Positions 4,271-64,000 of a DNA stretch of 64,000 nucleotides are shown one piece after another. Position numbers and translations under genes: made by a program. The stretch comes from Sphaerolaimus hirsutus (taxonomy: Eukaryota; Nematoda; Chromadorea; Monhysterida; Sphaerolaimidae). The notes under the pieces were generated by a model. It searched no databases. It was given only the letters and a program-made list of their open reading frames with translations, and was not told the DNA's origin. The stretch's first letter is position 1, and every line of letters begins with the position of its first letter. Location: assembly GCA_964036195.1 (NCBI GenBank), contig OZ038452.1:21649785-21713784 (forward strand), read 5' to 3'.

Positions 4271-7200
4271 CTACGCCTTACTCTTATTTTTCTTCAATCT
4301 CAACTCTCGCACGGCCTCAATATAAGGTATCAAACTAGAGAGCTTTTTCGCCTTGGCTATGAAAGCGTGCTTGAGCAGATCGTCCGCACTGGCGCGCAGT
4401 TCCGGCCGCGGCTCGAGACACCGGTCGATGAAGTCCTGCAGCTCGACGCTTAACTTGCCACGCTGCTTTATGTCCGGCTTGCCGTTCTGCGCGATCAGGT
4501 AGATGGCCTTGAGCGGCTGCTCGTGCAGGTAGGGCGGCTCGCCGTCGATCATCTCCAGCGCCAGGATGCCCAGCGACCAGATGTCCACCTGAGGATATTT
4601 TCGAAGATGGTATCATCAACAGCATCAGTCGATTCAATTATACGACATGGCCCCCCACTAGGTAGTTGACACCTGAAATTCGCGTCAACTGAATTCAATT
4701 GACAAAATTGGCGTACAGGGGTATCTTGAATTTTGACCCTCCGAGTGGTTGGATAGATAGCAAATCGCTCCTCCGGAGGGATAGATAGCTGAAAAATTTT
4801 CTGGGGGGGGGTTGGGGGGGGGTTTGGGGGGGTTGTGGTGGTTCGATATATAGGCTTTTTCGGGGCATAGAAGGTAGAAAAGGGAGAAAAATCGCTAAAA
4901 GTAGGTGTAAAATAGCTCAAAATGGGTATACAAGAGCATATAGTACTTAAAATAGCTGAAAATAGGCAGTTATACGCATGAACCAGTGATTTTGGAGGTG
5001 AAAATCTATATATAGGTATGAAAAATAGCGATTTTGAGCGAAAATTAGGGTATAATTTCTGAAAAATCGCTCCAGATAGGTAGATAGCTGGGCGATTTGG
5101 GGGGGGTTTAGGGGGTAGTAGCCCAAAATTTTGCCTCCGGGATAGATAGATAGCTGAGCGGCCTCCGGGATAGATAGATAGCTGGGCGGTTTGGGGGGGG
5201 GGTAACCCCCCCCAACCCCCCCCATTCGAGACCCCTGTTGGCGTAAATACGCGCTAAATACTTCCAAAAGAGAAAAGTTGTTACAAAAGAGAAATTGGTA
5301 TGAACTACATGTAAATAAGAACCACTCTGTAAGAAAAATTTTATTCATTGTGTGGTAGATCTAGGGTTGGCCGATGTTTTTTTTTAAACGTTTTTTATTA
5401 AAAAAAAACGTTTTTTTTTAAAAAAAAACATGACGTCCGAAATGTTTTTTTTTAAAAAAAAACATCGACCGAAATTTTTAGTACTAAGCACTAGGTATTT
5501 TGCAAAATTTTTGCGCGCAAGCGCGCAATTTCACACACAAATTGACATTGGTGGTTGTTTTAATTGGTTTTGTGGCATTTTTAGTATCAAAGTATCCATT
5601 TCTATGTGCTACCATGGGTTAATAAGCCGTCATATGTTGCTGTAGTATATAATATTGAGGTAATGTGCTTCCATGTACCTCCACAGTGTGTAACTTTACT
5701 CCCAAAGTAACAACCTCGTTTTATAACCTTGTTTGATCACTATTCCGTGCCAAACTTTACCTGAAGTCACAAACATTCGACTATAAGGCGATATACGAAC
5801 GATATGTCAACGAAAAATGGATATTTTTGACACAAATCACCACTTATAATGCTATCCCATGACTCCACAGACATTATATGGTCATATATAACATCACAGA
5901 GTATTGCCACTGTCTGATATACCTATATATGTTGACACAAGGTCATATCTGGGAGCTTTTAAAAAAAAACGTTTTTTTTTAAAAAAAAACATCGAGTTAA
6001 AAAAAAACGTTTTTTTTCCAACCCTAGGTAGATCGCTCTAATAATAAAGTTGCAGAGAAGCAATTCCTCTTAGAATATTTCACAACCGAAAAGCAGAAAA
6101 TAGCTAGCCGCAATTTTCCACCCCCGCTGAACCTATTGTCCAAAAAAACAACCGCACCTTGAAATTGTACTTTTCTCTGTTCACAATTTCCGGCGCCATC
6201 CAATAGGGCGTGCCGACCATGGTCTGCCTATTGCCGCGCTCGTTATTCAACTGGGCGCAGAAACCAAAATCGGTCAGCTTAACGGAACCGTCGCGACCCA
6301 GGAGCACGTTATCAGACTTCACGTCGCGGTGGATCAGACTGTGCCTGAATGTTTGAAAAGTAACTAAGCAAGTAAAAGAATAAAGTTACTATTAGGGATC
6401 GCACTTGATTTTTTCCGATCTGATTTTTTAATCACTGGGTGGAAAGTTATTTTTGTTATCAAAAGGGAAAATTTCCGATACACGTGCACTACGTATTTTG
6501 GAAATTTTTGAACTCAGCACTCCACACTAATAATATTACCACACTAGACACAGCAATACATTGTGACACTTAACATACACATATTTTTGATCTATACTCC
6601 CATGTTTAAAAAATTTGATTTTAAATGTTAAAACCCCCCAAGGCGTTTGTAAAAAAGTAGATTTTTCCAACCATCGTCACTATGACCAACTGCTGCAAAT
6701 CTTGCAAAAACAGGCCACACACCCGTGCATGAACTGCAGCGCCTTAAGTATCTCTTTACACACAGCAGCCATCTGACCCTCATCCATCTCTGTCTGCATG
6801 ACCACATCGGTGAGACTGCCGCCATTGAGGTACTCCATGACGATCCACAGGTCATCGTCGCCCACCAGGTAGCCCTCGATGTAGTTGACCAAGTTGGGGT
6901 GCTTGTACTGCTGCATGACCTTGATCTCGGTGATGAGCATCTCCTTCTTGGGCTGCGCGCTGAACGGTATCCTCTTGACGGCGACCGTGTGCGTCGACTT
7001 CCCGCTGCCGCGCAAGCGCGCCAGGTGCACCCGCCCGCTCGCCCTGATTGGGGGGGGGATTGGGGAATTGAATGGGGCACTTAGTGTGTCGGAAAGCTTT
7101 ATACGGAAAGCTTTATAAGTAAAGGTAAAACTATTTATCAGCCGGAAAACGGAAACATGAAATGCCGGGAAAAGCAAAGCGGAATTTGCATGGAAACGGA

Positions 7201-10200
7201 GAAAAAATTGCAGAAATTTTGCCAGAAAAATTCGTGATTGAAGAAAAATCTAGCCAGAAAACAGAACAAAATGGTCGGGAAAACGGAAAGGTAAAGTTTT
7301 TCAAATGCCGGAAAACGGAAAGGTAAAAAATTTCTGCTGTCGGAAATCGGAAAGGTAAAAACTACCAGAAAACGAAAAAGTAGAAGGTAAAGGTTTGCCC
7401 TGAAAACGTAAAGTGTACCCCTTACGCGGCACCGACAAAATGAGAGATAACAAAAGCAACAGACCCGACTCCGACTTGCTCTAAAATCTCAAATTTGCTG
7501 GTCGGATCCTCGCTGCAGACGATTTTTCTCAACTCAATTAGCACTTCCCCCTCGGCCATCTTTCTCTTCTCCTTATCCGCCTTATCCTCATTCTTCACAT
7601 TCGTTCTAACCCTGACATGGGGGGCGGGCGGCGCGGCAGCTTGAGGCGGCGCGTCTTTTTTCACGTCGCCACTTTCTTGCCGCTGCGGCTGCTCTGCGCT
7701 CAAATCGGCCGTCTGCAGCGGCTTGGCGTCATCGTCGGTGGCGGTGGCCAATCGGCGTACTTTCTCCGGCTGCTCGTAGCCGCCAGAGTTGGCAGTCTGC
7801 CAAGCCTCGGGCGTGTTACTGCGGAGGAAAAAGTCAGTGTCAAAGTGGCTAGTCAGCGGCAGGAAGAAATAGTGTTCGAACTAGTAAATACTATAGGCGT
7901 AACACACACTAAAATTTCGTTCGTTCGAACGTTTTTTTGGACGTGGAAGCGGAACTCGTATCTTCAAAACCAATTGGATGAAAAACAGGCCCACCAAAAG
8001 AGTTTGAAGGAATTTCATTGTCCTTTAAGCAATTCGCATGTATGGATAACTATTTTTTTCCGCGCACACGCTTCCGGTTTCCTCATACATATTTTTTTTA
8101 CTTCCGCATTTCAGCTCCGCTTCTAAAAAAAACGTTTGAATGAACAACTCAAAATTCCTGTGTGCGGTGAGTCACAGATTCAATAAAAATTCGTGTTTCA
8201 AAATCTCCGATGCCGATAAACGACATCGAAGCTCGCCAGGATATATCGTTCAAAGCACACAACGGACACGCACTTGAGCTCCATGTCGTTCTCGGTGGGA
8301 CTGTCGAAGGTGACCATCTTGTCCACGTCGGTGGGCGGCGCCGTGGTGCGCACCGGCGGTTTGGGCGGCACCAGCGGCGGCTCAGCGTCGCTGCTGCCCG
8401 CTGAAGATGAATGAGACCCTGTTCGCGCCGCTTGCAGTCTCTGCGTGGGGATCAAATTGTTAATCGTGCCAGTTGATTCCCTTCACGATGCATCCAAGTT
8501 GATGCAAAACCTTCAAGCACTAAAATCTATCTACCGTATATCCTAGAATAAGATCCCAGGGGAGTTATTTTTTCGTCGGTGTTTTTGAGGGGGGGGTTCA
8601 AGGGGAGCATTTATTCCTTTCCTGAGAAAATTTGGACTTAATTCATTGCATGAATGCATTCTGTTAACTCATGTGATCCAGGTATTTAACAATTAAACAA
8701 CAACAAAAAGGTGTGTATACACTACACTGCGTACACATTATGTATCTGCTATACGCTGCCATCGTAACATTCTTTTGCATTTTCATCAATTATTTTTGTA
8801 CATTTTGTAGCATATTTTTCACCCACAGGGGTATTCAAGAGGGTAGGGTTCAAACGATATATCGTATCGAATATCGGATATCGACCATTTTTTAATATCG
8901 AATATCGAATATCGATATCGAAAATTTTGAAAAAATATCGAATATCGACCATTTTTTCGATATATCGAACCTGTATTGTGTCCCCAAATTTACTTTTCAT
9001 TTTCATTTTGAGATGTTTATGGTTGATGTGATGTGCTTATAGTATTGTATTTAATGAGTAAAAGTACAGTATTTATAATGTCATTGTTGTTGGAGTGCTA
9101 AATTTGAAGCCAGAAAACGCTGTAATACTTTTTTTTGCAACATGCCCTTAAGCAATTAGGTTAGGATGAACTGTAATATCTACCAATTGTTATTTGTCTG
9201 ATACAGTTTGATTCATCATGTTTTGCTTCTATTTTCTACCATTGAGTAATGTAAAGCTTGTTAAAGTCACTTGCACCATTCAAATTTCAGTAAAGAGATG
9301 ATTAAACATGTGTGCAACCACATGAAAATACAATTTGCCACTTGAAATATGCCTTGCTATACCAAAAGCATATCGCAATATCGAATATCGAAAATATCGA
9401 AATATCGAATATCGAATATAGACCATTTTTCAATATCGAATATCGATATCGAGGTTCCATATCATATCGATATCGAATATCGAGTTTCAGAAAAAAATAT
9501 CGATATCGAAAATTTTGAAAAAATATCGAATATCGATATCGAAAAGTCATATCGTTTGAACCCTACAAGAGGGAGAGTTATTTTTCGCCATAGTTTTTGA
9601 GGGGAAGTTATTCAAGGTCAAGGGGGAGGTGTTATTCGAGCATATACGGTAACCAAAGAACTTACTGCAGGTTTCGGCGGGATGGGCGGCGGCGTAGCTC
9701 TGTTATTTCTATTTCCATCCAATCTCTGTAAGGTGGACTGTCTGGGCGGCAGTTCCGGCGGCGGCCTGCTGGATGAATGCAAAGCGGTAAAAGAGGCACT
9801 CGTGCCATTCATGTCGTGCGCTGGAGAATCGGCTACAGGTCTGCACAAAGTGAAATCGTTACAGTTGATCAAATAAGCTATCAAAGCCGAATGGGATCCC
9901 GATCCAAAATACCCGGAAAAGTCCGGGATTTGGCACTCCGATAAAGAAATCTCAAAAAAATCCGCCGACCCCAATCACGATCCCGGAAAAATTAGTTGAA
10001 ATGATTTTAAAAAAGTCGAAAAATAACATTTTTTCACTATGAAATGTGATTGTGAACGAAAACCTGCAGTGTCCAATTTATGCCACTTATGGCAACTTTA
10101 ATAGCAACCTTTAATATCAGAGCAATGTCCAAAATCCCGATCCCGAAACCATAATCCCGATCCAGAAACCCCAATCCCGAAAACTCAAAAAGCCAATCCC

Positions 10201-26521: not shown

Positions 26522-38625
<12,104 letters not shown>

Positions 38626-45095: not shown

Positions 45096-45165
45096 TGTTG
45101 CAACGTTGCAGGATAATCCCCGAAGTGGCCGTGGACAACAACAATGTCGCTGTAAATTAGCTTAA

Positions 45166-46342
45166 TAAACACCTTCCCGGTCATGTCCGGCACCCATTTT
45201 TTGATTTTACGCTTTACATCCTATCCACAGTTCTAGGGCGCCCCAGAGGCTGAAACTTGGGGTAGATATTGGCGCAACCCCCCTCTACTTCGCATGAATT
45301 GGAGGGGTCGCGGCGACCCCTCTCAGGGTGGGTCGCCCTAAGTGCAAATTTTTTTTTGGCTTTTTTGGTGTCCCACAGCAGGTCCGGCACCCGCTGATTT
45401 CTGAGCTGTGGGAGGAGTATAAATCTAAAATTTTGGGGATTTGTTACCAACACCACTCCCCTACTGTACACTATTCAAAAATGTGAAATTTATGTGAAAA
45501 ATTTCTCAAAAATTCGCTATTCTCTAAAAAAACACCACTCCCCAATAGATAGATGACAAAAAATTAACTTTTTGGAACTTTTTTATTCGACACTTGAAGA
45601 GATGGTTTATGATACTTTAAAGGGAAGGGCTTGATGTTTAAAGTTACGTAAAGAACCATACCTCTAAAATGCCTGCATTGCAAAATTTATTTGGGGGGAA
45701 TTTCAAAGTGTAAATTTTGTAAATTTTTGTTCCTGCAATGATGTCATTATGATGTCATTATGATGTCATAAAATTCGCCCTAAGTAAATTTTGTAATGCA
45801 GGCATTTTAGAGGTATGGTTCTTTACAAAACTTTAAACATCAAACCGTTCCCTTTAAAGTATCGTAAACCATCTCTTCAAGTGTCTAATAAAAAAGTTCC
45901 AAAAAGTGACTTTTTTCTCATCCATCTATTGGGGAGTGGTGTTTTTTTGCAAATTTTTGAATTATTGAATTTTGAATAATTTGCGAATAAGCGAATTTTT
46001 GAGGAAATTTTTCACATTTATGTCACATTATTGAATCGTGTATAGTAGGGGAGTGGTGTAGGTAACACATCTCCAAAATTTTAGATTCATACCCCTCCCA
46101 CAGCTCAGAAATCAGCGGGTGCCGGACCTGCTGTGGGACACCAAAAAAGCCAAAAAACATTTGGCACTTAGGGCGACCCACCCTGGGAGGGGTCGCCGCG
46201 ACCCCCCAAATTCATGCGAAGTAGAGGGGGTTGCGCCAATATCTCCCCCAAGTTTCAGCCTCTGGGGTGCTCTAGAACTGGGGATAGGATGTAAGAAGTA
46301 AAATCAAAAAATGGGTGCCGGACGTGACCGGGAAGGTGTTTA
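45166..46342. mobile_element. Large foldback element, 1.18 kb near-perfect palindrome
   Basis: Left arm AAACACCTTCCCGGTCATG and right arm CGTGACCGGGAAGGTGTTT extend inward as inverted copies for several hundred bases, around a centre near 45720-45770 with tandem ATGATGTCATT. A TA dinucleotide flanks each end. No transposase ORF. Confidence 0.8.
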
Positions 46343-46581
46343 ATACAGAAGCCGTCGCTTCGAATGACGTACAAGTAAGAAAAAATAAAACAAAATTTCC
46401 CTAAAGACAATCCTTTACTTTCATTGGGACTGCGATTTTCAACACGGTGTTCCGCGAAATTTGTCACGGGTACGTCAAACGTAACGGTCACATGTAATTA
46501 ACAATCATTGTCATGTCTGTCTATCGACCTGAACGCACCTGCCTATGGCGTAAACGAATCCCACAAATTAAATAAATACAT

Positions 46582-54070: not shown

Positions 54071-54192
54071 TTGAAAAAAAAAAAAGAAAAACCGGGAAAA
54101 AAAAAAAGAAAAACCGGGGAAAATTTCTTCCTGGTGTGGGATAGCGTTACGACGCACTGCGGCGGTCAGGCATCGCTGCTTCGTGTGTGAAG

Positions 54193-54344
54193 GTGTGTTT
54201 GGTGGATGTTGAGCATAAAACGCTCAAGCTACAATTTGTAGCGTCCCAGATCAAAGCTTCGGCATGTTCTGTGAGACATATACTGTATCTGGCATTGTGC
54301 CAAACTTACGGTATAACCATACTACCAATATGGTCCCCTTACAG
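54193..54344 (+). other. Intron-like segment in the LINE 5' leader (152 nt)
   Basis: GTGTGTTTGG...CCCCTTACAG precedes the first in-frame ATG (54385). It is open in the downstream frame although its length is not a multiple of three. It contains the palindrome CTGGCATTGTGCCAA at 54289-54303. Confidence 0.5.
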
Positions 54345-54384
54345 GGGTGAACTCCTCTATGAGGAAGCTCATTTGTCGCGACTA

Positions 54385-57300
54385 ATGTCCGACGAACCAT
54401 CTACCATCGCATTTACTGCGTCCCAGTCGGACATGCGTCCGCGACAGTTTTTGGCATCGTGCCAAATAACTCTGGCCAAGTGCCAAGATTACGAATTAAT
54501 TATATACGTAAACTATTCATGTATTACCAAGTTAGAACTACATACATTGTTAACTTCCAGGCTAGAGCGCTATCGAGGCGACTCGCTGACGCTGATACAA
54601 CTCGGTTTTATCGATATGTCAGACGGTGACGTATTTACGGATGAAATTTCGGTGAGTATACTAGGGGTAACTTCTATAGAACCTACATACTCGTCCGTTG
54701 CTAAATTGTTGAACCATTGTCATTATGAACTCTACATGTTCACAATCGCAAATATACCATTATTACAGATGGCGAGTCAGGGACTGGTCGCTCGCGTGCT
54801 TGCTAGCGACGGTCAAGACGGCAACGTTGGTCCGAATGTAAGCGATGACTCGAACGTCAACAAAACTAGACGTAGCCGATTGGTAAAACCGGTGGCCATA
54901 ATTCAGACTAAAAATGAGGCGTCCACGCCGCATCGTGTCGAGACAGGTGTGTTAGATGACAGGGTAACCTGTGTTATACGTAATTATAACTTGATAGTAG
55001 GGGGTTACGTAGCATTATACATAGACATAGATTCACTCATAATGAACTACATCCATGCCGTGGTTGATTTGCATAATTATGGGATACTCAACTCAGACAA
55101 AAATCTGGAACCGGAGCGCCGCTCACACGACGGTGCAGAAATTGTTGGACCAGTGCCAAATCCAGACCCACAGCCTCAAGACAGGTCGCAAGATGACGGC
55201 GAAGGTGAAGAAGTGGTTGACGATTACAACTATGGCGTCGGTTTTGAGCCAGGATGCATTGTGGGCGGATATGCTGTATCGGGTCAGATACAGTTGACTT
55301 CGGGACGGGTTATGGAACCCGATTTGCGAGGGCGGTGCAGGTCGGCATCGAAAATGGCCGCTGCAATGGGTGAGTTATTTGATATGATTGTCGCATCGGT
55401 AAAGAAAACAGTTACAAACAGTAGACAATACAAAAATGTTGAGAAAAAACTTTGTTACCATCCTGCGGTTAATAACGTAAAATTAAATATTGACATCCAT
55501 TGCACATCGTCTACGGGGTCAGTCAAAGAGTTGCAAAATATTTGTCATTGTGTTACAGGCTTCGTCTCGGCTAAGGGTGTGATGGACTGGGAAACGGCTA
55601 CAGCTGATGCTTGCAACGGCTACTTGGTGGGGGGTTCAAAACTACACCCCTTTGAAATGGCGAGCTGTATGATAAAGTGCTTCAAAGACAACCCCCTGGG
55701 TACCCCAAATGCACTAGAACTAAGCTACTTGGCAACTATTGTGCGCGATTTAGAAGAGTCACGAAACTTACAGGGGGACTATATGAGACATGTGAGTATG
55801 GGGGGGTTGCATATATGCTATACGTTACAGTACGCACAATACTCTGTTTGCCTGCTTGAATTGCCACTAAATGAGAAATTTTGCATGAACATTAATAAGA
55901 AAAATGGTATTTTCATGAAAAACAAATTACTGTGTACGGTGACAGTGTTTTTCGCAGAACATGTTACGTTGTTTACTATCGGAATACTTTCGCAGCTCGA
56001 GGTGGAATGCGCTAATGCATGCGGTGCTTTGAAATTTGAAAATGCGGATATCCAAAGCCAGCTTACAGCGCTGTCGAATCGCATGACTGCGATTGAAAGC
56101 GGCATTAAGGAACTGCAAAATGTGAGCGCGGGGGAAACTTTAAAATGTAATACTGTTTTTTGGTGTGGGATAATTAAAAATAACTATTTCATGTTCACAG
56201 GGGCGTTATTACATGCCCTTCCTGCTGTAATGGTACCAACAAAATACACTGTAATCTTACGAGGTTTTGTACAATCAGGGTATATAAAGTTATGCACCCC
56301 TAAAATTCATATCGTTCATACTCAGAGTCATGCCACGCATGCGACGTTAATGAACCAATGCAAAAACCAGTTGGCACTTGTCCAGAACACGCAAATCTCG
56401 TCCCAGATGCCTGCGAAGGTGATCATGGCGGCGGACAGAACGTTGGCAGCGTGCCAAACGTCAACAGTCCAGCGGTCCGCCGCGCCAAAGCGCAGGATCG
56501 ATATGGGGGGCTCCCAATCGTCTACGCAACCGAAGCGGGTGCATACAGTTAGAGTTGGGACTGAGGTAAATTTACAAATTGTATTATTCATCAGGAGGTC
56601 AAAATCTGTATATGACATAGCACAGTTGAAAGACGTGGGTTCAGTAAAAACAAACGATATATCTTGGGTTGATAGCATATCGATATCTCTAGCTGGGTTA
56701 AAAAAGGCTACTATTTACCTTTTCATAGTTTTCGACTTAAATAAAAAATACATGTTACAGACCCCCCTGGCGACCCCGTGCTTGCCCCCCCAGCCGCAAA
56801 TCCCGTTCAAACCGAGCACCGCGGATATTGTGATCGCCTTGGATGACCCAAGCGATCCGTTCAGTGGATTTTATCCCTGGCAGGTGAACGTTCAAGGCGA
56901 GGTATTCGAGTGCATTATGAATGGCATGGTTTATGTGAGTGGGGGTTCCCAATTAGACAGTTGTGGGGGTTCAAACCAATGTCCTATGTATATTAATGGG
57001 GTTACCACAAATATACAAGCCCAAATTGCTATATCAACCAGAAGAGCGAAATACAGCGTAATAACGAATGTTTCTAATATATGGACAAGGCCGCAAATTG
57101 TTGTTTCGCCACTATATTCACGTTATGTGAAATTGATAACTGGGTTACAACCATCGCAGGCCGAAGCCCTCGCCTGTGCACCCCCCTACATGTCGAGCAT
57201 GGCGAAAGCATTGAATGGTAGATTTGCTCAGACAGACGGCACAAAATGGTGCCCAGAATTTCATGAATATAAGCGAGAACTACTGCGTGTCTGGCTCCAG

Positions 57301-59386
57301 GTTACGCGTCATGTTGATGGGCTAAAATTAGACGTGGCGGACAAATGGTTTAAAAGGGGCGATGGTCGAGATTCAGACACTGGCCATTTGTACGACAGCC
57401 TGGACGATGCCACAGACACCGTGGCATACGCAACTTTAAAGACAATCATCCAAAATGCGGTCGACAATAACGCTGGGCTACGGTTGGTGAATGGTATTTT
57501 GATATCCAGCTATTTTTACTTAAAGAACATCTCTGGACAACATGGTTGTCCTGGTACAAACGGTGGATATCTGTCGTTGCTGTGTGTTAGATACAACTTT
57601 TTGACATGGGGGTCGCTTTCTACCAAATTTTGGAATTGTCCCTCTAGACAACAAGGTGAACTCACTAGACAACAAATCTGTTACATTCTGACTACAGTTG
57701 TACAAAAAGGTAGATGTATAAAACACGAGTTCCCATATACGGATTTTTATAAGAAGGTCAATAGACATCTAAAAATTCCCAATAGACATCTAACAATAAT
57801 TACACACAGACAACTTCTTTGGTCGTCTGGCAACGCGTGCGGTCCGAACGGCTGGGTCAGAACCGATCGCGTAATTAGATGTGCTGGCGAGTTTCCCCCT
57901 TCCGGGTGGCAGGGCGCGCTGCTATGTGGAAGTATCAAGGGAAAACTTGAAGTAAGTCTATTTTTTAAAATCGTGAATAGGATAAAATTAAGATCTAGAG
58001 TGCTAGTAATATCGAATAAAATGTATGACACGATTGTCATAGAATTGGAATCTTTGTTTGTGTCAAACAGTTTAAGGTATGACATATGCTCCCACGTTTA
58101 CGTAATTTTACAAAAAAAACTGTTACTTACGCAGTGCGCCATACCTACGTCCCACGGCCCATACTTCCTGGCACCGTATATGAATTTATACGGTATGGCG
58201 TGGATGGAGGTACGCTCGACCATAAGCCAAGAAAGCGCGTTTTCACATAGAACAGACACGGGCGTTACGGAAGAATTGGCCGACGAAGGTTTGTTTGCTG
58301 CCTTCGACGATGCCAAACAGTGGGACGCGAGAGACAGTGCCAATGTCTACGCGAATGTCCAGGCCAATATGATCGCTCCGGAACCGTATCTTGAAAAGGT
58401 ATATATGGGGTCAAATGAATATTTTTTGTGTGAAAGTAACGTACATGAAAAACTGAAAGAGAATCACAAAACAGTCAGTGATTACGTTTTTATAAGCGAT
58501 TTTAAAAAATACCAATTAATTAATAATGTGTCAAAAAATTTTAGAACATCATCTAGTGTGCCAAATAATTTTAAAATATCATCAAGTAAGGTGTTATACA
58601 GTAGCATTATTAAAACGCCCCCCCCCACAGCAACGAAGCAATGCGACCCTGCGGCGTGGGTACATGCCCGCTATCCTCGAAAATGTTGCAAAACAGCAAA
58701 ATGCTAATGCCAACGGCGGCCAGCGTGTGGCGAGCCGCGGGAGGAATGGCAGGGGCACTGGACAACAACGGGGCGGAAATCGCAATGATCGCGGTGGCCG
58801 TGGAAATGCACGCGGCGGACAAAGGGGTTGGTTTATACTACCGCTGTTTATGGCTCTGTTAATACCATTAGTCAAGGTCTCATGGAGTATACATACATTT
58901 GGACAACTGCCAATTACAGGGCGCGGCGGTGGCCCGGTCCCCAAACAAAAAACGGCCTACCAGAAGACGCATCGTGTTTTCGCAGCGCTACGCGAGCCCA
59001 TTATCGAAAGTGACCAAGTTGTTGTGGCGCAAACTCAACACACAAACGGTTTGTTCGGATTTAGTTACTTGGAGGAATTAACTTGGTTGCATGATTCGAT
59101 ACTCATAAACTGTGCAAATGTACAGAAATGTAGCTATTTTTCTGCTGAACATACAGACTTTTCGACGGTTCTTGGCATCGTGCCAAACAACGATTACAAA
59201 ATAAATATAAACGTACACTATTAAACAATTATCAATTTAGAACCACATACACTGTTAATTATACGTATAACTTACAAACGTTATACGTTCGTACTTTAGC
59301 ACGTTTTACTTCATACGTAGAACGGCAGTCCCAGTTCGACGACAACTCTGCACAAGTCGATGCCGATGAACATGCCGATGGCGTAG
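54385..59386 (+). CDS. LINE ORF1 protein: coiled coil plus RGG box, with in-frame intron-like segments
   Basis: This is a probable RNA-binding ORF1 protein of the LINE. Without splicing, the frame from ATG 54385 stays open to TAA 58705-58707. The frame one base further on is then open to 59224. If the intron-like segments are removed, the exonic parts join in phase and end at TAG 59384-59386. Recognisable parts: an acidic linker near 55150-55230, a heptad-like coiled coil at 55996-56121 (NADIQSQLTALSNRMTAIES), and an Arg-Gly-rich nucleic-acid-binding box at 58730-58960 in place of CCHC knuckles. The rest matches no domain I recognise. Exonic parts are near 50% GC, and the GT...AG segments are clearly AT-richer (counted: 54% for 54769-54946 against 36% for 54652-54768). 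Confidence 0.65.
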
Positions 59387-59509
59387 ATGTAATTCTGTGC
59401 GATGGCGATGATGCAGAACAAGGTGACTTGCTTTTTCATAGTTTTTCGGTGTCTTATAACCAACTTACTTGGATCAACTTTGAATATACAAACTCCGCCC
59501 ACTTTCTAG
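54447..59509 (+). other. Set of 14 stop-free intron-like segments
   Basis: Segments (length): 54447-54560 (114), 54652-54768 (117), 54947-55096 (150), 55370-55558 (189), 55627-55773 (147, weakest), 55792-55995 (204), 56122-56325 (204), 56566-56760 (195), 56935-57159 (225), 57483-57809 (327), 57952-58134 (183), 58399-58630 (232), 58827-58919 (93), 59423-59509 (87). Donors include GTGAGT (four times), GTAAGT, GTGAGC, GTAAAT and GTATAT. Acceptors are pyrimidine...YAG. All are AT-rich. All but the 232-nt one are multiples of three, and none contains a stop in the host frame. A further segment, 59018-59320 (303 nt), does contain stops and separates ORF1 from ORF2. Confidence 0.65.
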
Positions 59510-62500
59510 GATTGGGCGGTGGTGCTAACGCGGGCGCTTCGCAACCGACAGATGGAACGTACGCGGGCCATGCGCAGGCTAGCGTTGCAACATCTTTACG
59601 TACTACACACCTTCACGCCAAACTAACCAAACAGGTTCGTGGTGTGGGGTGGAAATCGCTGAAGACGAAACTGTGCAAGGCGTTCGGATTGGGCCAATTA
59701 TCACCAGCGACCAGGCAAAAATGCGCGAAAAGTTTTGCGCATTATGTGGAGACTCCCCACGTATTTGATGATTGCACCCAGCTGACTGACCCCATACTTG
59801 GCAGGCGGCCAAAAAGTATGAGTGATGTGGTCAGAATGCTGAATAACGGGGTCAACATGGGGCCCACCTGCTCCTACCGCGAAAATGATTACACATGTGC
59901 CATTCGCGTGGAGCCACCTAGCTTCCCGCTGGCAAACAATGGCCCATATGATTATTTCTACACCGTTTTACTTTTTGGCGATAGTGCAGGTAGCTCACTG
60001 ACTAGTATGCTGTCTTGCGACTGTGCGAAGTACAATTTGCCGATAATTGTGCATTCTTCGAAAGCACTATTTAGCGGCAAAAGGCTTCCCACAATCGCTG
60101 CTGCGATCAGTGAGGTATCTTTGACCAGCTCGTATGACGCTTTGTTACTAAGATGTGTTCTCAACGCATGTGATGCAGAGAACATTTTTTCATCTGGACA
60201 CGGTGTAGATGCTGTGGAAACCTACTTTGTCTCTGGTGTGTCTCAATGTTTATCAGAAATTGTCAACGCTACGGGTATTTCCTTCCAGCCAACAGGCAAA
60301 GTGATTTTGAGTATAATAGGCCCAACCATGCCCCGCCACATGAAAAATGGGTGGAGCAGGGAACTTTTGGTGGAAACTTTCGAATTTTTCTTTAAATTAG
60401 AGTGTGCACTTGTGGATTTGGTATCGGAATCGTTTACTGATGTTGTAATTTTACCCGTGATGACGTTTTTACGCTGGAACCACAAGGACATACACTGTGA
60501 CAGCGAGACCGATGCATTACTTCAGATGGTCTGCAGGGACGGCCTGCATACCTCTCGTGTGGGGAATGCGGTCATTAGCCACTTGGTTCAAAAAGAGCTG
60601 TTAAAACTGTGGGTTACTGAAAAGTTAACTACTTTACACTGCAAAGCAACATACCCCCTTACCCCCTTCATAGGGCGCCGGAAAGGGCCGCAGCGGGGGA
60701 CAACAGAGCAACGTGATGCGTACCCCTGCAAACACACTCCCCCTGAGTCAACATTTTGCACGACAACAGTGAATACAGGCGGTTCCGAATGGTTATGCAT
60801 CATAGTTTTAACTTTTGTGGTATTTTTACTTTTTTGGATGTCAGACGCACATTTCTCATGTGGAACGTTCCCATGTTATGTTAGATGCGTACTTTATATG
60901 TTAAACTTGATCGTCCCATCTGGGGATACAATAATTGAACAAAGTCTTCAAATTCATAATTTAGCGGTTGAAAAGTACCTATCCATCATAACCCATCTCT
61001 ATTTCATGATTGTGGTGTTTTTAACTTTTCGGTCAATACTGCGCGATATACATGTGCATTTTTTGTCGCGATTTTGGCTAAGTGCCATTGTGTTACTTTT
61101 TTTAATCGAAGCAGTGCAGGGAATAAACGATTTCAGCAACTTTTATCCTGACAATGAGACGTACTTGGGATCTGGGTTTTCACTGCCCTTTACTATTTTA
61201 TATCAGAATGCACGACACCTTAAATGGAAACGTGAAGAAGTCCTGAGTGCGGTTCAAAATAGCTGTAGTTCCATACTGTGTTTCGTGGAAACACATTTCA
61301 GGTGTGCTACGGATGCCATCGTTATTCCGGGCTACGCGGCCTACCACAGCTACAAAACAGGTGTGGAGGCAGGGGGTATTTCAATTTATGTGAAAATGGG
61401 TATTCGACATAAAATGGTGGATTTTAGAAATGGTGACAATATAAAAGGTGTTACTTTAGAGTGTGCGGGTGTACGATACGTGCTATTAACCTGCTATCTA
61501 GAAAATAACAGTAAAAGTCGGAAATCTAGAGCAATTTTGAGGAAGAATATAGAAATACTCGATGAACTAGGAGCTCACTATGAGAAAAATACACAAATTG
61601 GGGATAAAATCATCATAATTGGTGATTTTAACGGGCATATAGGGAATGATATGCTTGGTATTGAGGGGAATGCCTCAGAAATCAATATCAACGGTAAGAT
61701 TATACGAGACTGGTTGGCTAAAATTGGTCCTTGTACCCTTAATAGGGCATTTAAGTACCTTTGGACATTTGAAAGGAAAAATTGTAAAACTATAATTGAC
61801 TTTTGCTTTACAAATATCCATGATGAGAGTCTGTGGGGAGAGATTGATCACACCGGAGAAATTTGTCCCTTAATGTCCGATCACCATGCTATTTTACTTT
61901 ACCTAAATAATCAAAAACCAGATTTAAAAGAAGTCTTGAAAATACAAAAAAAACCTAGGGGTGAAGAATGGGCAGCGTTCACCGAGGCGCTAATAGATCA
62001 AAATCCAACCAATTATGATGATTTCATCCAAACAATAAAAAATGCTGCTATGCATGCCACTAATTCACGTGTAGATAACCATGTAAATAAGATTACTGTG
62101 CCGACTTCTATAAAAAAATTGCATAGGAAAATAGGGAAATTGAGGAGAAAACAGAAAAAATCTCCTTCTGATGAAATAAATGGTGCGATATCACGATTGA
62201 AATGGGAGCTTAACAAGGAGAAGCGGCTCTTAAATAGAATACGTAAGGAAAAAAATCTAGATATTTTAGAATTGAATAAATGTAAGGAAATTAATGCAGT
62301 ATACAAACACATCAATCGTAATTGGAAGGTACGGGGCCCTGTGGCACAGATAAAAAATGCCATGGGGGAAATAGTTGATACTCCGAACAAAATGAATGTT
62401 GAAATGCGCAAAGTATGGGACATTGTTATAGCACCTAATCCTGGATCGTTAAACTTTGCTAATGTAGATCAAAAACTTTCACAGGATGACGGGAGTGCAA

Positions 62501-64000
62501 TGGTGGATCCATTTACAATGACGGAACTAACAAATGGGATAAAACAGCTGAAAAACAATAAATCAGCCGGGACAACAGATATATACCATGAATATCTGAA
62601 ACACATGCCTATCTCAGGTAGGGAAAGTCTTTTAATGATCTACAATGATTGGTTTTCAGGAAAGGAACTTCCTGACATAGCAAAAGTGTGTAAAATGGTG
62701 CTACTGCATAAGAAGGGGTGTAAATCCGATATGAAGAATTATAGGACCCTTGGTATAAGCTGTAATGTGAAAAAATTGTATATGCTTCTTTTGAACAATC
62801 GCTTAATGAGAATATGTGAGGAAATTGATCTATTTAGTGAGTTACAAGGGGGGTTTAGACCGAACAGACGAACTTGTGACAATGTACAAATTCTACGTAC
62901 ATGTCATAATTACGCATTATGTAATGGGAATAAGTTAGTGACATGTTTCGTCGATGCAGTAAAAGCATTCGACAGAGTTAATAGAGAAAAATTATGGTTT
63001 AAACTTGAAAAAGTGGGGATTCCACATAAGTTTACTAGGGCGATAAAATCTGCTTATGATAACATTTCAGTGAAAATGACATATGACGATTTTTTATCTG
63101 ATGAAATGGAATATCCGATTGGAGTAGCGCAAGGCTGTGCCTTAAGTCCCACACTTTACGCAATCTACATGCACGACCTAGCTTGTAAGCTACTCGAAAC
63201 AGGAAATGGTGCTAAGCTAGGGTGGGGCCAACCAAAACTGCCCGGCCTATTTTTTGCTGACGATATTATACTTATGGCAAATAATGATATTGAATTGCAA
63301 GACCTGATGAAATCCTTTACAGAATGGGCTTGGGATTGGAATATAGCCATAAATAAAGAAAAATCACATATTCTGAGATGGGGTAAAAGAGCAACCAATA
63401 AAGCTTGGTTTCTTGGATACAATTCTGAGAGAGAACTACAAACCATCAGTGAAGTAAATGAATCCAAGTACTTGGGGATAACCCTAACTAGTGATCCTGA
63501 TCCATATCATATACATAGAGAAAATGCTAGACTAAAAATGTTAAAACATAGCTCTCTAGCCATTTTATCTTCCTCAAACACCACGAAACCAGCCCTGTAT
63601 GGCAAAATGGCCTTTAAAAGCTACATAGAACCAGCCTCTATGTATGGGTTGGAAGTGACAGGGGCCCCTAAAAAATTATTGCTTGAACTAGACAAAATTT
63701 ATTGGCAAACAATTAAAAAATGTCTCCACTTGCCAATAAACACGAGTACTGCCAGTCTACTTATTGATATGGGTGGGGAATTGCCCTCAGATAGGTACCA
63801 CCAAATGACCATAACCTACTTTAATTATATGAATAAGTTAGATGACAACAGACTTTTGAAACGTGCTATAGGTGTGGAAAATGACATGAATTTTCTCTCA
63901 AAATTGGGTAAATCGGATAGGATCAAAGATCGTTATGTAGAAAGCTCAGGATTCTGCTCTAACCCCATCTCAGAGTTAAAATTGCTATCTAAAACAAATG
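59321..64000 (+). CDS. LINE ORF2 polyprotein: SGNH hydrolase, APE endonuclease, reverse transcriptase (3' truncated by window)
   Basis: One frame is open from 59149 to the window edge; the first ATG in it is 59818. An SGNH-hydrolase-like region spans about 59880-60612, with a GDS-type nucleophile motif (LLFGDSAGSSL) and a C-terminal DxxH block (RDGLHTSRVGNAV). The APE-type endonuclease starts at 61195 (TILYQNARHLKWK) and has GDFNGHIGND and MSDHHAILL. The reverse transcriptase runs from about 62500: NNKSAGTTDIY, GGFRPNRRTCDN, FVDAVKAFDRV, GVAQGCALSPTLYAIY, catalytic LFFADDII, then SKYLGITLT. The endonuclease-RT half is AT-rich and has no intron-like segments. The link between SGNH and endonuclease (60613-61206) is open but low-complexity, with hydrophobic runs. 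How ORF2 starts is unclear. Confidence 0.88.

Follow-up and report, generated by a model that had tools for sequence, protein, structure and literature searches.

A nematode LINE with stop-free introns and a probable splicing switch between ORF1 and ORF2

The window analysed here is a stretch of 64,000 nucleotides from the nematode Sphaerolaimus hirsutus (contig OZ038452.1, positions 21,649,785 to 21,713,784 of assembly GCA_964036195.1), part of a 348-Mb assembly of 762 contigs that contains many diverged copies of the long interspersed nuclear element (LINE) described below. In the window, one copy of about 11.7 kb extends on the forward strand from position 54075 to about 65806, as delimited by self comparison, and thus runs beyond the window end. 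A composition scan of its first open reading frame (ORF1) revealed GC-rich and AT-rich blocks in alternation along the region. From the DNA sequence alone, we propose that this LINE probably uses pre-mRNA splicing as a switch between ORF1 and ORF2. Intron-bearing actin genes and a COX1 in which TGA is read as Trp mark the assembly as eukaryotic.

The element and its exon-intron organization

The element is a non-long-terminal-repeat (non-LTR) retrotransposon of the apurinic/apyrimidinic endonuclease (APE) type, with an APE-like endonuclease (EN) upstream of the reverse transcriptase (RT), no LTRs and a simple 3' tail (Table 1). A 17-kb self comparison (E 1e-5) showed no direct terminal repeats, and the 3' end is of the TTGTA type in both the window copy and copy c2. 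PDB chains of R2 and human LINE-1 ORF2p were matched by sequence. RT relatives are only 22-33% identical, and homologue searches with the window protein P0001 and with residues 1740-2569 of another copy's frame reported none.

Copies were collected by searching the genome with a 501-bp DNA query, which found eight places with identity down to 68%, and with a protein query, which gave at least 46 matches in at least 29 loci (29 scored of 1275 first-look candidates). Seventeen other copies, whole or partial (c2-c8 and d1-d10), were taken and each was scanned for open frames. Nine of them (d1-d4, d6-d10) consist of a single open frame of 3253-3583 codons that spans ORF1, introns and EN-RT. These intact copies represent eight families at 45-55% protein identity, apart from the near-duplicate pair d8/d10, while in d5, c2-c8 and the window copy the frame is interrupted to varying degree or the copy is only partly covered. 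The intact set was picked because the genome search reported long open frames; the reported length matched our own scans in the nine LINE copies and differed in d5 (2890 versus 1548 and 1040). For family totals (intron counts, last-exon identity, Gln codons and acceptors, donors), d10 was omitted as a near-duplicate of d8, and d5 for its interrupted frame. Copies c2-c8, frame-broken or partial, do not enter the intron counts across families and were used in the gap-length and pairwise tests. The cross-family counts cover ten introns, I3-I11 and I14, the edges of I1, I2, I12 and I13 being harder to place.

In an alignment of the intact copies, exon blocks, most of them at 50-75% identity and others above or below this range, are sharply set off from the gap-rich blocks of about 5% identity with which they alternate. 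At the block edges, I3-I11 and I14 start with GT and end with AG in 90 of 90 cases; the sites were chosen by script as the best within eight or nine codons, with three donors reset by hand, and the printed alignments show fixed positions. G occupies donor position +5 in 64 of 72 cases for I3-I11, versus one of eight families at I14. The residues encoded by the donors differ between families (after Met-Gly at I3: E, E, R, K, E, R, W, K), although the bases remain donor-like, and CAG is the last intron codon at 48 of 48 phase-0 acceptors (six sites), whereas outside the masked introns it accounts for 225 of 630 Gln codons. The branch-point motif CTRAY, whose stop triplet necessarily lies out of frame, occurs 13 times in 80 introns, too few for use. 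These comparisons show ORF1 to be split at conserved positions by fourteen predicted GT-AG introns.

Table 1. Features of the window copy of the LINE, in window positions (3n, length a multiple of three)
Feature	Position	Strand	Remarks
Element 5' end, tandem AAAAAGAAAAACCGGG-type units	54075..54123	+	unit number varies between copies
Exon 1 with proposed ORF1 start codon (MSDGDVFTDEIS)	54616..54651	+	putative start codon
I1	54652..54768	+	117 nt, 3n, no in-frame stop; acceptor not evident in d4, d8, d9
I2	54947..55096	+	150 nt, 3n, no in-frame stop
I3	55370..55558	+	189 nt, 3n, no in-frame stop; 3n and stop-free in 9/9 intact copies
I4	55792..55995	+	204 nt, 3n, no in-frame stop
Exon 5, heptad-like (coiled-coil-like by eye)	55996..56121	+	no Pfam match
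I5	56122..56325	+	204 nt, 3n, no in-frame stop
I6	56566..56760	+	195 nt, 3n, no in-frame stop
I7	56935..57159	+	225 nt, 3n, no in-frame stop
I8	57483..57809	+	327 nt, 3n, no in-frame stop; 216-819 nt in intact copies
I9	57952..58134	+	183 nt, 3n, no in-frame stop
I10	58399..58630	+	232 nt, frame-broken here; 3n in 9/9 intact copies
Exon 11, RGG-rich	58631..58826	+	likely nucleic-acid binding, from composition
I11	58827..58919	+	93 nt, 3n
I12	59049..59320	+	272 nt, frame-broken; stops in all three frames (4, 3, 7); extra copy of 54447-54553
I13	59423..59509	+	87 nt, 3n
Large ORF1 exon with SGNH-hydrolase-like domain	59510..60612	+	60-84% identity, window versus eight other copies
I14 (putative switch intron)	60613..60673	+	61 nt
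Last ORF1 exon, two reading frames	60674..60772	+	spliced +1: GAGKGRSGGQQSNVMRTPANTLPLSQHFARQQ-stop; unspliced frame 0 continues to EN-RT
Conserved GGAATAAA	61120..61127	+	possible poly(A) signal of spliced ORF1 mRNA
Endonuclease domain (PF03372/PF14529)	61270..61893	+	both matches below curated cut-offs; PF14529 E 1.2e-5, slightly under cut-off
Reverse transcriptase domain (PF00078)	62710..63483	+	E 3.3e-30

A first-pass annotation of this DNA had counted fourteen AT-rich GT-AG segments in ORF1 and the start of ORF2. Thirteen of these stand as I1-I13, all defined inside 54385..59509, and its fourteenth is probably an AT-rich segment upstream of the proposed ATG, at about 54475-54559. What it had read as the start of ORF2 consists of ORF1 exons and introns, and the frame-shifting I14, the proposed switch between ORF1 and ORF1-ORF2, lies beyond that interval and had been overlooked. 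The exon phases do match on both sides of the segments, as it had noted. Its thirteen lengths divisible by three and its freedom of every segment from in-frame stops have to be corrected for the window copy, where both I10 and I12 depart from a multiple of three and I12 contains stops in every frame.

Joined, the exons of the window copy give 1205 codons without a break, from the ATG at 54616 to the stop at 60770-60772. Unspliced, a 1520-codon frame without a stop covers 54145-58707 and ends there, even though the shifts of I10 and I12 cancel (232 + 272 = 504). Since the spliced frame is intact and the unspliced frame is broken in I10 and I12, the faults of the long frame lie in introns. The I10 of the window copy contains a 30-nt tandem duplication at 58527-58587, absent from c2, which together with single-base differences near a C run would explain the lost frame of this intron. 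In I12, a stretch of about 100 nt, 54447-54553, is repeated at 59161-59258 (71%); the I12 of c2 also carries this repeat, 90% identical to the 5' stretch of the window copy, and it is absent from the I12 of c3 and c4. Its presence in I12 is a recent internal copying event.

The spliced ORF1 protein would combine the heptad-like segment, the RGG-rich segment and an SGNH-like domain. A match to PF19040 (SGNH) was obtained for three of nine members, with a best E of 0.0013, and none for the window sequence alone, while a PDB profile search found no match. The comparison with esterase-type ORF1 proteins (CR1/L2-like) thus comprises a weak SGNH match in three of nine members and a coiled coil read by eye.

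Near the 5' end, the palindrome TTGGCA-NNN-TGCCAA is present in the window copy and in all eight other copies examined (d1-d3, d6-d9, c2). In the window it occurs at 54451, 56443 and 59172, and also at 7789; it could be a protein-binding or RNA element.

Open frames and substitutions in the introns

Across the ten introns in eight families, 5167 codons contain no in-frame stop, whereas 382 are expected from composition and 408 and 431 stops occur in the two alternative frames, so that stop-free AT-rich DNA beyond chance, as the first-pass annotation had seen it, is borne out. The lengths of I3-I11, ranging from 69 to 819 nt, are multiples of three in all nine intact copies. Because these nine copies were chosen for long frames, weightier tests come from the window copy compared with c2 and with c4, and from the copies outside the intact set. 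Between the window copy and c2 (I1-I9), 147 intron substitutions left no stop in 595 compared intron codons, versus 5.9 stops in simulated substitution. Between the window copy and c4, 506 intron substitutions were accompanied by one stop beside 579 compared intron codons, versus 15.4 simulated, and by one stop in exons. Stops in sister copies, which had been named as grounds for abandoning frame preservation, are therefore absent or rare in these two copies, the zero in the nine intact ones being given by definition.

Indels follow the same pattern. Eight of nine indels between the window copy and c4 in I1-I9 are multiples of three, with differences of 29, 1 and 1 nt in I10 and of 101 nt in I12. 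In the eight copies outside the intact set (c2-c8, d5), 78 of 91 measurable gaps at I1-I13 are multiples of three, where one third is expected, and the count is 50 of 54 when only c5-c8 and d5, not closely related to the copy in the window, are taken. The near-duplicates d8 and d10 (97% DNA identity) differ by just two indels, of 162 and 6 nt, and no intron stop separates them, versus 3.8 in simulated substitution.

The amino acids encoded by the introns behave differently. The ratio of nonsynonymous to synonymous substitution rates (dN/dS) between the window copy and c2 is 0.90 in introns and 0.14 in exons; between the window copy and c4 it is 0.72 and 0.08. For d8 and d10, the introns give 0.72 (63 nonsynonymous, 24 synonymous), compared with 0.19 in ORF1 outside the ten introns (a class that includes I12 and I13), 0.12 from I14 on and 0.47 before I3 (including I1 and I2). 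GC content is about equal at the three codon positions of introns (about 0.35) and uneven in exons (about 0.55, 0.46 and 0.55). In the introns, judged from these patterns, frame and absence of stops are apparently policed and amino acids are not.

As a host control, four actin loci provided 19 introns with similar splice sites, of which nine are multiples of three and none is stop-free, with 106 stops in 2345 codons. A genome-wide habit of stop-free introns was rejected on this count. The genome search had reported long frames in actin loci, but in L041 and L043-L045 our own scans, on which we relied, found no open frame longer than 167 codons on the strand scanned. A further actin locus, L040 (G000:C637), lies on a GC-rich contig and is unlike the other actin loci; it possibly comes from another organism in the assembly.

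Copies that had lost their introns were sought with a query of 805 residues from the exons joined as far as I13, which gave 245 matches in the genome. Those listed follow exon borders, and six of them extend more than 20 residues beyond one. Five of the six carry an intron there, by measured gap in C16 (c7), d5 and d1 and by eye in C14 and C7:27.61M; the sixth, C2:26.39M, has its sequence outside the set of examined copies. Among the matches listed, there was no confirmed intron-less copy. Each of the 17 copies contains I2-I11 and I14 wherever these could be measured, and the block lost from c3 comprises one exon and parts of two introns. With matches that follow exon borders and introns kept in the copies, the template of retrotransposition appears to be unspliced RNA.

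Intron 14 and the ORF1 C-terminus

I14 departs from the other introns in length class. In 16 of 16 copies where it could be placed (the nine intact copies, the window copy, c2, c3, c4, c7, c8 and d5), its length is one more than a multiple of three, between 58 and 70 nt, with 58 nt in d5; it could not be placed in c5 and c6. Removal of I14 would therefore shift reading to the frame that holds a conserved ORF1 C-terminus and a stop. In this +1 frame, the sequence after I14 encodes a shared peptide such as GAGKGRGGGQQPGVMRTPANTLPLSQHFARQQ, followed by the stop, and in c2, c3, c4, c7, c8 and d5 the tail after I14 ends in LSQHFARQQ-stop. For the final 19 residues, compared among nine sequences (the window copy and eight families), identity averages 0.55 in the +1 frame, against 0.21 in frame 0 and 0.25 in the remaining frame. 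The last exon varies most at the third positions of the +1 frame (0.35, 0.26, 0.67).

Downstream of the ORF1 stop, in the unspliced frame at about 61050-61130, a hydrophobic segment is followed by a conserved Gly-Ile-Asn/Lys site (GGAATAAA) just before EN. The site is present in the window copy and in all 16 other copies that cover it (c6 ends before it), and it is a candidate poly(A) signal or processing site. AATAAA occurs elsewhere in the open frame at about the number expected by chance, which weighs against a poly(A) role and makes that role a hint only. The AT-rich stretch 60774-61119, whose frame-0 translation is hydrophobic, was weighed as an additional intron and rejected, there being no conserved AG at its end.

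Splicing, translation of the template RNA and alternatives

LINEs have to produce large amounts of ORF1 protein and small amounts of ORF2 protein from an RNA that doubles as template, and the known routes to this ratio are reinitiation, internal ribosome entry sites and frameshifting. In our interpretation, the present LINE likely has a splice-controlled switch between ORF1 and ORF1-ORF2, convergent with that of copia-type LTR elements, and it is the unspliced template RNA that requires its introns to stay translatable. Fully spliced mRNA, whose 3' end may lie at the conserved AATAAA before EN, would yield the ORF1 protein (1205 amino acids here). As I1-I13 are normally multiples of three and stop-free, the unspliced RNA of an intact copy is a single open frame from ORF1 through EN-RT; this full-length RNA would serve both as retrotransposition template and as mRNA, translated in cis into an ORF1-intron-EN-RT fusion in which the intron-coded peptides would be passive ballast. 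Stops and frameshifts in introns would be purged because they cut RT off from its own RNA, while amino-acid changes would be tolerated, and the introns would not be lost, since it is only the unspliced RNA that is copied into DNA. On this point the sequence evidence supports the first-pass annotation, which had suggested introns of the spliceosomal type that stay in frame and free of stops, the unspliced RNA being both template and mRNA.

Several observations count against this interpretation. Three of eight families (d7, d8, d9) retain part of the last-exon motif only. Judged against the U1 consensus, the donor of I14 is weak and mostly lacks G at +5, and at I1 a clear acceptor exists in only five of eight families. 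Some families do not share the ORF1 start codon, and ahead of the proposed ATG the frame of the window copy stays open for 157 codons (54145-54615) that align weakly across families and that the interpretation does not account for. Of the intron gaps outside the intact set, 13 of 91 are not multiples of three, and the intact set itself was chosen for long frames. The proposed fusion, moreover, would include non-conserved residues by the hundred, amid which EN-RT would have to work or from which it would have to be released.

The same absence of intron stops would be predicted if the stop-free introns served only to let unspliced genomic RNA escape nonsense-mediated decay, with EN-RT translated by other means. 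This explanation overlaps with translation of the template, but on its own we regard it as unlikely, given that frame 0 is also open from the ORF1 stop to EN in all nine intact copies, which would be unneeded if EN-RT had its own start.

Slightly less probable again is a giant, never-spliced polyprotein whose linkers, evolving rapidly, would be encoded by the segments as normal coding DNA with incidental GT and AG edges. Nine copies with one open frame throughout agree with such a polyprotein. The segments, however, have equal GC at the three codon positions, unlike exons, and dN/dS of 0.72-0.90, against 0.08-0.19 in ORF1 outside them; their donors are kept as nucleotides while the encoded residues vary, with the phase-0 acceptors uniformly CAG, and the conserved ORF1 tail can be reached solely through a departure from frame 0 at I14. 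The first-pass annotation would have recognized ordinary coding sequence by a protein-like conservation of the segments, and that test came out against ordinary coding sequence.

Programmed ribosomal frameshifting before the ORF1 tail, in place of I14 splicing, would account for the frame change with a weak donor and a segment of 58-70 nt. It is very unlikely, as the interior and length of I14 vary while its edges, TGG/GT and YAG/G, are kept (YAG/GA in d8), in the same design as the other thirteen introns. The donor reads TGG/GTT in eight families and TGG/GTA in c8.

An exitron is an alternatively spliced segment that is itself protein-coding, and exitron-like use, in which varied sets of retained introns would give functional ORF1 variants, is the most improbable account: the frame is indeed kept whichever of I1-I13 is retained (shown for I3-I11), but the segments, although stop-free, lack alignable amino-acid sequence and codon-position signal and change almost neutrally. 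For the same reasons, and with about 5% column identity between families, retained-intron forms of ORF1 are unlikely to be selected as proteins, which leaves little room for the combinatorial set of useful ORF1 proteins, or for the comparison with exitrons, once suggested for this DNA.

If the splice switch and translation of the template are real, splicing is a new route to ORF1/ORF2 control in a LINE, with I14 as its hinge, and the many introns of a retroelement are explained by copying of unspliced RNA only, cis-translation keeping them open. The sole evident constraint on the introns beyond splice signals would then be that they must not stop a ribosome. In thousands of otherwise neutral bases, they would constitute a natural record of template RNA translation (cis preference), together with near-neutral in-frame sequence for measuring it.

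Penelope-like elements are retroelements known to keep introns; their RT class is other than that of the present LINE, and we know of no frame-kept, stop-free introns with a frame switch among them.

The closest parallels come from LTR elements, as described in the portions of the cited papers on which the following comparisons draw. BARE1, a Ty1/copia LTR element of barley, has a 104-nt alternative intron at the end of gag, U-rich between GC-rich flanks, whose splicing shifts the frame so that a stop follows just after gag, while the unspliced organization is one ORF (PMC3735527). BARE1 is an LTR element with one intron, whereas the present element is a LINE with fourteen, thirteen of them normally in-frame and stop-free across ORF1. 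In EVD/ATCOPIA93 of Arabidopsis, splicing is coupled to premature cleavage and polyadenylation, which yields a short GAG mRNA, and the polyprotein is encoded by the unspliced full-length RNA (PMC8892269). A conserved AATAAA after I14 would fit this likeness if it were used for poly(A) here; EVD is again an LTR element with a single intron, unlike the present LINE. Drosophila copia dedicates a spliced subgenomic RNA to Gag (PMC3735527). There, splicing removes most of pol, whereas here segments inside ORF1 would be removed and the frame shifted at its end.

The predicted design follows the copia/BARE1 logic, in which intron removal at the end of a gag-like ORF leads to a nearby stop and the unspliced RNA reads into pol. 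With a LINE-type EN-RT and no LTRs, the element is not a member of that group, and the mechanism would be convergent. Esterase-type ORF1 proteins are known in several LINE clades, and ZfL2-1 and other LINEs have an ORF1 with a coiled coil and an SGNH esterase beside an EN-RT protein (PMC3905857). The portions of that paper drawn on here mention no introns or splice switch for such LINEs, whereas ORF1 and ORF2 form one frame in the unspliced RNA of the present element, whose esterase similarity is weak. Among the titles and abstract openings of open-access papers listed for intron-bearing LINEs or stop-free introns, no LINE of this design was found. Translatable introns and a copia-like splice switch in one LINE would be a new combination, the kindred mechanism being known in LTR elements.

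Elsewhere in the window, long inverted repeats resembling miniature inverted-repeat transposable elements, 89-96% complementary, lie at 351-742 and 5426-5817 and at 45163-46345. Protein kinase fragments (PF00069) occur on the reverse strand at 6680-7246 (E 3.4e-17) and 27174-27734 (E 8.3e-16).

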